This document shows, in pieces, positions 7,640 through 11,037 of a stretch of 64,000 nucleotides of DNA (the stretch's first letter is position 1; the number at the start of each line of letters is the position of its first letter). Origin of the DNA: Sediminibacterium sp. KACHI17. Its GTDB lineage: Bacteria; Bacteroidota; Bacteroidia; Chitinophagales; Chitinophagaceae. The stretch spans positions 930,001 through 994,000 of the forward strand of contig NZ_AP029612.1 in assembly GCF_040362915.1 (NCBI RefSeq). Reading direction: 5' to 3'. The notes beneath the pieces were generated by a model. That model made no database searches, was not told where the DNA came from, and worked only from the letters and a program-made list of their open reading frames with translations. The position numbers and the translations under genes were made by a program.

Positions 7640-9385
7640 CTATTTTGAGGCGGTAGCAGTACCGCCTTTTTTACTGTCCACATTAACGGTATACTTCCCT
7701 CCTCCTTGTACGATCCACTTCACTGTCACCGTCCCTAAACCGGGAATATTCGATACTTCAATGGTTTGAGGATTGTTCTGTTGTTCTTTACTCAGGTTCA
7801 GATCTCTGTTCTCTACCTGCATACCACTGAGTATTTTACCGGAAGTAGTGAGCGTGATATAATCCGGACGTTCAATTTTATTTTTAGCATCCTGACTGCT
7901 GTGTGTAGGCATCAGCCTGCCATTATAGATCACTGCTGTTACTTCTTTCAATCCATCACCTAGATCTTTTTCGGTGATCTCAGACACTTCCAGTTTAGGC
8001 GTATGGAAGCAATGATAAATACTGAAAGCCATATTACGGTGTGCATCTGATTCCAGTAAAAATCCGGGGTGCGCACGACCAAAATTTTTCTTCATACCAC
8101 CCACTTCAATTTTACCATATTGCGGATGATCATATTCTTTCCAAGAAACAAATGCATCTTGGAATAACAGATAACGATCAAAGCTATAACTGGTATTATC
8201 AAAAGGATCACGAGTAGCATCACGCATATACATCAGATAAGGAGTCCACAATTCATTCGAATACGTATAGATTCCTCTTCCTGCATAAAACCAATCCAAC
8301 TCACCACCATAAGCCGAATACAGATCTTTGTACACAACCAGGTATTTATATCCCGGAATCAACTCCTCTCCTTTTTTTGCGATCGCATCATACACCGCAA
8401 TATCCTGTGCATTGTAAGTACCGATATCTTCTTGTCCACCCGGACCCCGAAGAATCATACCTCCGGCATTATGGAATGATTGTGCTGCAGCGATGTTGGG
8501 ATGTTTCATTACAAACTCCATCACCGCTCTATTCTCCGGCAAAGAGAATGGATATTTGTAAGCACCATTTTGAATATAGTTTGGCTGCCATCCCCAACCC
8601 CAATCACGGTTAGGATCATATTCAAAAGTGTAGCCATCTTCATTCACTCTTCCATCCCCATCATTATCGATACCTTCAATACCCAATAATTCATAATCGC
8701 CCTTTTCATCCGGACCAACCTGAATCATGTTACGAGGATCTTTAGGGTCCAATTTCCAACGACCATTAGGATTCTTTCTGCGCATCATGGTGATGTGCCC
8801 GTCATTATTGATATCATCATAACTGTCTTCATTCACTTGTCCATCCCCATCATTATCAACCGGGATCACACCAGAACGGGGTGAACTGCCGGTATTGGGT
8901 TTGTGCATATAGCTGTCTCTTGCATCCGGGTTGATGGTAGGAACGATATAGAATACTTTATCTTCTAATAATTCCTGAATGAATTTCGTATCGCCGAATG
9001 ATTCAGTTAAGTACCATGCAGTATACAAAGCGAATTCAGCACCTTGAATTTCATTGGAGTGAATATTGCCATCGATATACATACCGGGCTTACGATCCGG
9101 ATTCCCTTTTTTGAAATCAGTGATGGTCAAGCACCAGAGATCTCTGCCCTCGAATGATTTACCGATGGATTGTAGTTTAGCCAGATCCGGATAAGCAGCT
9201 GCGATCTTTTTACAGATCTCACTGATACCTGCATGATCATAATACCGATTCCAGGTAACAGTTACTTTGGGATTTACAGGTGAACCTGCAGCTTTGAATA
9301 CCTGATCAGGCAATTGTGCATGAGCGGTCATACCGGTAATAAGCACCAGCAGACTTGCGAATATTTTTATACTAAAACGTTTCAT
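7640..9385 (-). CDS. Secreted M14 family zinc carboxypeptidase
   Basis: Exported metallopeptidase of 581 residues with a signal peptide (residues 1-24, ending AHAQ). The M14 zinc motif HxxE is His109-Ser-Asn-Glu112 in GNIHSNEIQG. The third ligand is in SFHNAGG and the catalytic Glu is probably in YTYSNELW. Asp-rich insertions such as DNDGDGQVNED look like calcium loops. It is the second gene of a pair, 20 bases after a degenerate M14 homologue, and the two are probably co-transcribed. Start chosen at the ATG giving the signal peptide. Confidence 0.88.
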   Translation of the reverse strand: MKRFSIKIFASLLVLITGMTAHAQLPDQVFKAAGSPVNPKVTVTWNRYYDHAGISEICKKIAAAYPDLAKLQSIGKSFEGRDLWCLTITDFKKGNPDRKPGMYIDGNIHSNEIQGAEFALYTAWYLTESFGDTKFIQELLEDKVFYIVPTINPDARDSYMHKPNTGSSPRSGVIPVDNDGDGQVNEDSYDDINNDGHITMMRRKNPNGRWKLDPKDPRNMIQVGPDEKGDYELLGIEGIDNDGDGRVNEDGYTFEYDPNRDWGWGWQPNYIQNGAYKYPFSLPENRAVMEFVMKHPNIAAAQSFHNAGGMILRGPGGQEDIGTYNAQDIAVYDAIAKKGEELIPGYKYLVVYKDLYSAYGGELDWFYAGRGIYTYSNELWTPYLMYMRDATRDPFDNTSYSFDRYLLFQDAFVSWKEYDHPQYGKIEVGGMKKNFGRAHPGFLLESDAHRNMAFSIYHCFHTPKLEVSEITEKDLGDGLKEVTAVIYNGRLMPTHSSQDAKNKIERPDYITLTTSGKILSGMQVENRDLNLSKEQQNNPQTIEVSNIPGLGTVTVKWIVQGGGKYTVNVDSKKGGTATASK

Positions 9386-9405
9386 AGTTGAATGATTTGT
9401 GATGA

Positions 9406-11037
9406 TCAAAGAGTAACCTCAATAGATTTGCTGCCTGCTGTTGGACAACCGGCTTCAATAACCAACTTACCGGTTCCTTTGATGACCCAACTGAATGATT
9501 CCGACCCATTGGCATCAATACTATTCAGCAAGTGGATTTTTTTACCTCCCACTACTTCTTGTTTTCCTGAAGTTTGAACAGCTACTTTTACTTTCTTAAT
9601 GAAATAACTTCTTTCTCCTAATTTACTATGCGTAGATAATCCACCCTTGTTCACCACATCCAAGCTAACTCTTGTCAATCCGTTTGCAAGTTTTTCTGTT
9701 TTCAAATTCACCACATCAATTTCAGGTTGATGTGAAGCAAGTTTCACCAAAAAGTCTGTATGTTTTTTTACAACAGGTTCCACTATTTTATAAGGTGGAT
9801 TCATCATTGCATAAGGATCCACACCACCTACTTCTACTTTTTGTCCGGGGAAATCAGGGTGCTGGATGGTTTTCCATTCTGTGAATGCATTGGCGATGCC
9901 TTGTTGAGCTGCCCAGCGTAAATAATTAGCGGTTACATCTTCTACAGTGAATGCTTTTTCTTTTTTGGCTGTATCAGGTCTGGTCTTAGGTACCCACCAA
10001 CCCGGTGTGCTAAAGCTGTAACGACCATAATGGAAGTAACCCCAAGAAAGAACATCTCCTCCTGTTGTGTTATTCCTCGGAGCATCTTTGGTTCCAGTAA
10101 CTTTGTTGTACAAGTCACTTACCATACCATTGACTTTCGCATCAGGTTCTAACAAGCCTGCTACGATTCTTTGTGCAGCTGCCTGCGGATTGTATGCAAT
10201 AGGATTTGAAAGATTATTGTTGCTGCCAAAACTTACCACTGCATACACATTGAATGCATCATACAGAAAATCAAGCATGGCTCTGGTTTCTTTTTCTGAT
10301 GCGGGATAATCACCTGCTCCAGGAGCAAAAGTCTTATGATTATAAGTCAGGTTCTTATTAAAAGCAATACCTCCTTCTCCATCTTCATTGAACTGACCAT
10401 CTTTATCATTATCGGTACCTTCTGATACTAATTTGTATTTACCTTTTTCACCTTTGCTAATATCTGCTTTGATCAGTACTCGGGCATCATCAGGATGTAC
10501 TTTATAATCACCCGTTACAGACTCAATGCGTAGGAAAGTGATCTTACCATCACCATCGAGATCTTCCCATCCATCTTCATCGGTCTTACCATCGCGATCA
10601 TCATCGGTAAGCGTAGCATTGCCTGTACGTCCTGTACGCAATTTGGAGAAGTATTGCTCCATCGCATCCGGACTCATATTCGGGAATACATAATAAGTAG
10701 TACGTGCCAATAAATTTTTGATACTGTCTGTTCCGGAAGCTTTCAGCAGTTGTTCTGCAAAGCCAATGGCTAATTCTGTTCCGAGAAGATGATTTCCCTC
10801 GACACCACCGATAACAGCGATCGCCGGTTTATTCTCTATTTTACCCGTGCCAATGGTCAATAGCCAAATGTCTTTCCCACCATTGGTTTTAGCGAGCGAT
10901 CTAAGAGAACTTGTTTGAGGATAGGCTTTCACCAGGGCATTGAGCCTGCCGGCCTGTTCAGTGGCGTTGCTGTAATCCTGGGCAGATATGGTACCTGCTG
11001 CCCAGCACAACATTGCCGTAAGCATAAGTTTTCGCAT
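9406..11037 (-). CDS. Degenerate M14 peptidase homologue (predicted pseudo-peptidase)
   Basis: Exported protein of 543 residues with signal peptide MRKLMLTAMLCWAAGTISAQ. It follows the layout of its neighbour at 7640: N-terminal M14 domain, Asp-rich loops such as DDDRDGKTDEDG, and a C-terminal beta domain. The catalytic residues look lost. The HxxE motif reads Glu80-Gly-Asn-His83, a swap of HGNE to EGNH. The later histidine region reads SFGSNNN instead of SFHNAGG, and the catalytic Glu region has no matching Glu. It probably binds or scaffolds rather than cleaves (inference). Confidence 0.8.
   Translation of the reverse strand: MRKLMLTAMLCWAAGTISAQDYSNATEQAGRLNALVKAYPQTSSLRSLAKTNGGKDIWLLTIGTGKIENKPAIAVIGGVEGNHLLGTELAIGFAEQLLKASGTDSIKNLLARTTYYVFPNMSPDAMEQYFSKLRTGRTGNATLTDDDRDGKTDEDGWEDLDGDGKITFLRIESVTGDYKVHPDDARVLIKADISKGEKGKYKLVSEGTDNDKDGQFNEDGEGGIAFNKNLTYNHKTFAPGAGDYPASEKETRAMLDFLYDAFNVYAVVSFGSNNNLSNPIAYNPQAAAQRIVAGLLEPDAKVNGMVSDLYNKVTGTKDAPRNNTTGGDVLSWGYFHYGRYSFSTPGWWVPKTRPDTAKKEKAFTVEDVTANYLRWAAQQGIANAFTEWKTIQHPDFPGQKVEVGGVDPYAMMNPPYKIVEPVVKKHTDFLVKLASHQPEIDVVNLKTEKLANGLTRVSLDVVNKGGLSTHSKLGERSYFIKKVKVAVQTSGKQEVVGGKKIHLLNSIDANGSESFSWVIKGTGKLVIEAGCPTAGSKSIEVTL

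Follow-up and report, generated by a model that had tools for sequence, protein, structure and literature searches.

Why should a bacterium keep, immediately in front of the gene for an intact M14 metallopeptidase, a second gene for a protein of the same family in which the zinc motif can no longer be read? The question is raised by two genes of Sediminibacterium sp. KACHI17, here called P1 and P2, on the reverse strand of the 64,000-nucleotide stretch of contig NZ_AP029612.1 that we analysed (the window). The initial annotation took them for an active peptidase with a pseudo-peptidase maintained beside it, a reading that is strongly supported by the orthologues, linkage, co-occurrence and selection described below.

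Two neighbouring M14 genes

9406..11037, minus strand: P1, pseudo-M14 peptidase gene, 543 aa (open reading frame and translation)
P1 protein regions: signal-like N-terminus (read by eye); M14 domain, residues about 25-435; C-terminal beta domain, residues about 440-543
9386..9405, minus strand: intergenic gap of 20 bases, P1 to P2
7640..9385, minus strand: P2, intact M14 metallopeptidase, 581 aa, with a signal-like N-terminus

The window ORF and its translation bear out the extent, strand and length first given for P1, with its ATG at 11037 and a stop codon that ends at 9406; and with the ATG of P2 at 9385, the intact M14 gene does stand 20 bases downstream, as had been said. Both proteins match PF00246 in Pfam (P1 with E 1.3e-20, P2 with E 1.5e-40), and they are identical in 148 of 563 aligned columns (26%). 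The nearest named relatives of P1, at 83-91% identity, come from Sediminibacterium and from bins of unclassified Chitinophagaceae or Sphingobacteriales. The signal-like N-termini of both proteins were read by eye; both are probably exported, and the two genes are presumably carried on one transcript.

For the two families we took ORFs of at least 520 aa which scored more than 300 bits (P1) or more than 500 bits (P2), assigned by the better of two profiles, giving 97 distinct P1 and 98 distinct P2 rows; counts over 98 P1 or 99 P2 rows include the window proteins twice. Shorter, contig-cut and split copies were left out (for example L090, G023, G897 P1 and G052 P1). An earlier, smaller set, for which the minimum length was 480 aa, had 73 P1 and 77 P2 rows, one of the latter a distant M14 (L012); 54 of its P1 rows make up alignment A1 and 52 of its P2 rows alignment A2. 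All 54 members of A1 match PF00246, the only family that Pfam gives in P1, P2 or A1. A type IX secretion tail was considered and rejected: NCBIfam includes a model of it, but this model was not matched by either window protein or by any member of the two alignments, and of the NCBIfam matches listed for these proteins none came near the curated cut-off where one is given.

An N-terminal segment of P2, residues 32-46, is strongly conserved (A32, G34, P36, P39, V41, W45, N46) and is represented by a gap or by no conserved residue in nearly all P1 rows; it is a possible propeptide or partner contact.

Loss of the catalytic centre in P1

10789..10800, minus strand: encodes E80-G81-N82-H83, which takes the place of the HxxE zinc motif (alignment to P2, to carboxypeptidase D domain II and in both families)
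10225..10227, minus strand: G271, opposite His196 of carboxypeptidase A, the third zinc ligand (family alignments)
10003..10005, minus strand: P345, at the position of the catalytic Glu270 (family alignments)
9994..10017, minus strand: SFSTPGWW (residues 341-348), a conserved motif specific to P1, on the strand of the former catalytic Glu (family alignments)
9050..9061, minus strand: HSNE (H109-E112) of P2, zinc ligands (family alignments)
8471..8473, minus strand: H305 of P2, third zinc ligand (family alignments)
8252..8254, minus strand: E378 of P2, catalytic Glu (family alignments)

Alignment places the EGNH of P1 at the zinc motif, where the initial annotation had put it, opposite the HSNE of P2 and, by HMMER, the HGNE of carboxypeptidase D domain II; HGNE had itself been given as the motif of the neighbouring protein, which in fact reads HSNE. 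The replacement of the third zinc His by Gly also holds, with G271 standing opposite it. The region of the catalytic Glu had been thought to be without an equivalent in P1, but SFSTPGWW aligns with TYSNELWT of P2, Pro replacing Glu.

This loss extends to the whole family: not one of the four catalytic residues (the equivalents of H69, E72, H196 and E270) is kept in any of the 97 distinct full-length P1 proteins, and a homologue with HxxE, which had been named as evidence against a pseudo-peptidase, was looked for in these rows and not found. P2 keeps all four in 98 of 98 distinct rows, the zinc ligands (HxxE and His196) among them, and the earlier set divides in the same way, with 73 P1 rows lacking every catalytic residue and 77 of 77 P2-type rows having all four. 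P1 is, in other words, a homologue of a peptidase family without its catalytic residues, which is what marks a pseudopeptidase in sequence, and we call it one, predicted to be catalytically dead.

What has replaced the catalytic residues is variable. Position 80 holds Glu in 66 rows, Asp in 13, Lys in nine, Ser in five, Met in three, and Leu and Arg in one each, and position 83 holds His in 76, Tyr in seven, Ala in four, Asn in three and others in the rest (98 rows, window counted twice), while at the Glu270 position Pro is found in 86 of the same 98 rows and Gln, Asn, His, Arg or Asp in the remainder. Exact EGNH occurs in 21 of the 97 P1 proteins, and Glu or Asp at 80 together with H83 in 58 of them. 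A conserved swapped zinc motif, the feature that had first drawn attention to the gene, is thus ruled out, and the conserved trait is the absence of a catalytic centre; by the same counts, a zinc site re-arranged on E80 and H83 would be unlikely for the family as a whole.

For the residues that bind the substrate carboxylate, P1 gives a mixed picture. N144 is tied to substrate binding in M14 enzymes, and its equivalent in P1 is Asn in 91 of 98 rows (window counted twice). R127 and R145 have been tied to the same function (PMC11266112, in excerpt); the R145 equivalent is Lys or Arg in 88 of 98 P1 rows, and Arg survives at the R127 equivalent in 8 of 98 (window again counted twice).

Conserved residues, Asp-rich loops and the structure model

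10573..10605, minus strand: Asp-rich loop 1 (D145-D155); D145, D147, D149, G150, E154 and D155 at least 90% conserved in the P1 and P2 families
10540..10563, minus strand: Asp-rich loop 2 (D159-I166); D159 and I166 at least 90% conserved in both families
10381..10422, minus strand: Asp-rich loop 3 (E206-D219); E206, G207, D209, D211, D213, N217, E218 and D219 at least 90% conserved in both families

The M14 layout and the Asp-rich loops are, as had been described, common to P1 and its neighbour. The near-invariant loops of both families sit in an inserted segment, with the R127 equivalent on one side of it and the N144 equivalent on the other; there is a median of three DxDxDG-type motifs per protein in each family (range 1-4 in P1, 2-4 in P2), and loops 1-3 are likely calcium sites. 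The earlier suggestion of calcium dependence is therefore plausible, because the loops are nearly invariant; since they are common to P2, however, they do not explain what sets P1 apart.

A match of the BamM model to one of the 54 A1 members (E 0.0059) was taken as an effect of composition; BamM has a peptidyl-prolyl isomerase fold with seven bound calcium ions (PMC12611786, in excerpt). An acidic repeat model gave weak matches in 7 of the 52 A2 members (best E 0.0093), and a phmmer match to SAKe6BC was rejected as repeat noise, no stretch passing on its own.

Conservation that is specific to P1 falls on N229, N274-N275-L276, Y334, H336, R339, S341-F342, T344, G346-W347, W375, D395 and H426, many of them near columns that hold catalytic residues in P2. 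Within four residues of the seven former active-site positions, conservation is 3.13 bits against 2.60 elsewhere (P1 residues 25-400), a contrast reached by 4 of 374 circular shifts. The former pocket of P1 thus seems, as far as alignment can tell, to be rebuilt and still in use; but P2 is equally enriched near the site that still works in it (3.49 bits there, 2.95 elsewhere; 1 of 369 circular shifts), and a constraint of the fold may account for part of what is seen in P1.

Could P1 then still be an enzyme, its site rebuilt with or without a metal and using, for example, H336 and neighbouring residues? The near-invariance of H336 (His in 96 of 97), Y334 (Tyr in 96), D395 (Asp in 93), N274 (Asn in 92) and N275 (Asn in 95) would suit such a site, as would the joint presence of an acidic residue at 80 and of H83 in 58 of the 97, but the many different residues that replace E80 and H83 speak against it. 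So does the distribution of the 18 acidic or His columns conserved in at least 95% of P1, most of which lie inside the Asp-rich loops (those outside are H336, H393, D395, E402, D124, E250, D299 and the like), and we regard this reading as very improbable.

The AlphaFold (AF2) model of P1, built from the 54-row alignment, has a mean pLDDT of 89 and a pTM of 0.89, and it is an M14 fold, with a VIA Z of 29.2 and an rmsd of 2.9 over 290 residues to carboxypeptidase T (6f79); the P2 model is weaker (pLDDT 76). The best Foldseek matches to the P1 model are carboxypeptidase T and other M14 carboxypeptidases. Carboxypeptidase T binds calcium. The Thermoactinomyces vulgaris enzyme (PDB 1obr, 6f79) is, as a bacterial M14 and the best structural match, akin to P1, but differs in being active, in its 323 residues, and in having neither the Asp-rich insertion nor the C-terminal beta domain.

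The gene pair across Bacteroidota

A scan of named genomes using P1 gave 57 loci, in Chitinophagaceae, Pedobacter, Sphingobacterium, Cytophagales, Saprospiraceae and Bacteroidales (Lacibacter and Sediminibacterium are also among the cultured genera with P1 loci), and genome searches found further P1 genomes, some of them outside the class but inside the phylum Bacteroidota. In every one of the 57 loci P1 directly precedes P2 and has the same orientation, with P1 split into two frames at L090; gaps were measured in 53, antisense frames overlapping four of the P1 frames, and adjacency was then retested on all 57. The outer neighbours vary by genus: the two commonest outer families, which from our reading of the sequences look like a methyltransferase and an aminotransferase, are each found in 17 of the 57 loci (some flanks being short), against 57 of 57 for the pair, and on this ground we rejected hitch-hiking with neighbours.

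That the pair is kept together, which the initial annotation had proposed to test across Chitinophagaceae, is borne out in genome samples as well as in these loci. The order, class, relatives and phylum samples overlap and their genomes are related, and they are not independent draws. In the order sample P1 is present in 26 of 396 genomes and P2 in the identical 26, neither being found alone (E up to 1e-60), with the pair in 12 of 165 genera; it is absent from 370 of the 396 genomes and is therefore accessory. The class sample has P1 in 13 of 395 genomes and P2 in 14, which are those 13 and G436 (E up to 1e-50), where the match is a divergent M14, 38% identical and with a different motif. Among the 60 genomes of the relatives sample, P1 is present in six, all with a P2 match, and a seventh (G054) has a weak match only (E 3.9e-7), to another M14. 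The P2 profile matches 24 of 168 genomes in the phylum sample (E up to 1e-60), four of them (G844, G905, G914, G931) through a separate, single M14 clade; 19 of the remaining 20 have P1, broken in one of them (G897), and in the twentieth, G911, P2 starts at base 23 of its contig, so that the P1 side is missing. G879 has two pairs, in each of which a P1 adjoins a P2. Active and inactive paralogues thus co-occur in the genome samples, as they do in pairs of the TldD/TldE or M16B type.

Gain or loss of the gene pair as a block would give the same profile. Co-occurrence without linkage is tested in just two genomes, G603 and G704, where P1 and P2 are both present but on different contigs (C55 and C11; C93 and C92), away from the contig ends expected for a partner and with other genes downstream of P1; the P1 proteins there sit on very long branches.

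A few loci depart from the simple arrangement. In G897 (L202:1716-6864) P1 is broken into overlapping frames of 192 and 365 aa, which are followed by two intact tandem P2 genes; the break is either an assembly error or an early loss of P1 after duplication of P2, and, unless it is the former, P2 may at times persist without an intact P1. P1 is also split into two frames in the metagenome-type assemblies L090:2003-3686 and L011/L013:1-1219, possibly through assembly errors, and in two bins titled Bacteroidales (L080:7435-11040 and L088:6520-10494) P1 has two successive P2-type genes behind it.

The fixed order of P1 before P2 would be expected of a helper that is made first, and one explanation is that P1 is an inhibitor, chaperone or guard that caps the active site of P2 or aids its folding or its crossing of the envelope. 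The 57 loci in which P1 precedes P2 and the order sample of 396 genomes in which neither gene is found alone agree with this, but in P1 conservation is higher in the Asp-rich loops and near the former cleft, which a ligand bound in the cleft fits somewhat better than the use of another surface, and we think a helper role unlikely.

A ligand in the cleft could also be held independently: P1 might be a peptide-binding or surface scaffold in the pathway of P2, for example one holding peptides for P2 to trim, the two forming no stable complex. The conserved cleft, the retention of the N144 and R145 equivalents at the counts given above and the unlinked co-occurrence in G603 and G704 are all consistent with such a scaffold, to which we give rather little weight since strict adjacency at nearly every locus favours a closer link and the R127 equivalent is Arg in so few P1 rows.

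Common history and selection

In a maximum-likelihood tree of 70 rows, 36 P1 rows fall on one side of a branch (value 97) and 30 P2 rows likewise on another (value 99), the other four rows belonging to neither; the method was a quick one, branches are long, and the root is unsure. Two long P1 branches, L136 and L137, are joined in this tree. The divergent pairs L100, L201, L174/L194 and L171/L207 lie near the base of both clades, and the simplest reading would be one old duplication followed by joint inheritance. The most divergent pairs, L100:4399-8226 and L201:2411-6357, have long P1 frames of 692 and 734 aa that adjoin P2, and in both P1 has none of the catalytic residues and P2 all four.

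A third M14 clade, of about 650-690 aa (L196, L197, L198, L199, L205, L206, L210), has no P1 or P2 frame adjoining within the stretches fetched. It has an HSGE zinc motif, an Asp aligned to the third zinc His, and the Glu kept; it may represent a further variant of the site, or the alignment may have shifted.

The distance matrices of P1 and P2 correlate with an r of 0.963 over 45 matched pairs, which none of 999 permutations reaches, and with 0.90 for pairs whose P2 distance exceeds 0.3. These correlated distances reflect a common history, and joint inheritance alone would give them. P1 changes at about 1.43 times the rate of P2.

P1 is under purifying selection. The comparison of dN/dS that had been proposed gave values far below 1: 0.051-0.053 for the window P1 against the three close loci L044, L045 and L046. 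For the window P2 the values are 0.013 (L044), 0.015 (L045), 0.027 (L047) and 0.025 (L090); for P1 the comparison with L047 yielded none, being saturated. The medians are 0.0685 for P1 (44 comparisons) and 0.043 for P2 (37 comparisons), with synonymous sites partly saturated; pairs had an identity of at least 80% and a synonymous difference of 0.05-0.65. That 0 of 97 proteins keep any catalytic residue, with dN/dS low and the model an M14 fold, makes the loss of the P1 site more than chance.

These values bear on whether P1 is simply a pseudogene decaying beside an active paralogue. Split or broken copies do occur in a few assemblies (L090, G023, G897), but dN/dS is about 0.05-0.07, 97 distinct intact proteins are spread over at least two classes of the phylum, and P1 forms one clade with conserved motifs of its own; we take dN/dS and the intact frames to rule this reading out, leaving it next to no probability.

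Known pairs and pseudopeptidases

TldD and TldE (PmbA), a bacterial heterodimeric metalloprotease, are cytosolic and belong to peptidase family M103. Like P2 and P1, they are paralogues of which one has a metal site and the other does not: TldE is without the metal ligands that TldD has, and only the two subunits together show protease activity (PMC5810440, in excerpt). They differ from our pair in having another fold with no homology to M14, and the complex has been shown there whereas we infer it for P1 and P2. A second parallel is found in M16, where alpha-MPP, of the mitochondrial processing peptidase, is inactive alone and yet takes part in the activity of beta-MPP (excerpt of PMC11266112), and where the bacterial M16B pairs SPH2681/SPH2682 and TTHA1264/TTHA1265 are known (PMC11266112 and PMC12731061, both in excerpt). 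As described there, these too combine an active metallopeptidase with a motif-less paralogue, encoded in the Thermus pair by a neighbouring gene, but they are of the M16 family, with an HxxEH motif and two halves that form a clamshell. Pfam, which finds PF00246 alone, places neither P1 nor P2 nor any A1 member in the TldD/TldE or M16B families.

Within M14, pseudopeptidases include carboxypeptidase D domain III, AEBP1/ACLP, CPXM1, CPXM2 and Ecm14, and for several of these animal and yeast proteins the function is unclear (PMC11266112, in excerpt). All five have the M14 fold and have lost catalytic or substrate residues, carboxypeptidase D domain III being in one chain with the active domains I and II. 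According to the same excerpt (PMC11266112), they keep H69 and come from animals or yeast; P1, in contrast, is without all four residues and is the product of a separate bacterial gene, paired with P2.

By title and the start of the abstract, among the matches listed, the open-access literature (subscription papers and preprints aside) gave no bacterial M14 pseudoenzyme pair. To our knowledge, no M14 enzyme has a separate, dead subunit of M14 fold. Pseudopeptidases, and pairs of active with inactive peptidases, are in themselves known kinds.

A proposed role for the dead partner

The recurrence of the pair in scattered Bacteroidota suggests that the dead twin works for or with the active P2. 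The reading we favour, at somewhat better than even chances, is that P1 is a dead M14 paralogue kept as a dedicated partner of P2, the two most likely being a two-protein carboxypeptidase. The line of P1 would have split from that of its active partner long ago within Bacteroidota. P2 would supply the zinc centre and P1 would be the non-catalytic subunit, its former cleft rebuilt around N227-K-N, N274-N-L, Y334-x-H336 and SFSTPGWW so as to hold a peptide or carboxylate end or to contact P2, which P1 might stabilise, activate or target; TldD/TldE and alpha/beta MPP are the closest functional parallels. Formation of a P1-P2 complex and binding of peptide by P1 would both be expected from such a partnership. 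Counting against it are the faster change and the higher dN/dS of P1 relative to P2, the accessory nature of the pair, the broken P1 that G897 has next to two intact P2 genes, and the enrichment of conservation that P2 shows near its own site.

More tentatively, we suggest as a possibility that the pair is a two-subunit M14 carboxypeptidase in which the erased site of P1 acts as a dedicated peptide or carboxylate exosite that sets the substrate choice of P2. Such a design would parallel, for M14, that of MPP for M16 and of TldD/E for its own family.

Annotation by Pfam would call both genes zinc carboxypeptidase, and P1 should not count as one. The pair gives a bacterial M14 pseudoenzyme whose active partner is fixed; it occurs in several orders of Bacteroidota and is not confined to a single class, and its carriers include cultured genera such as Pedobacter, Sphingobacterium, Lacibacter and Sediminibacterium. 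The role of a dead peptidase is thereby made directly testable.
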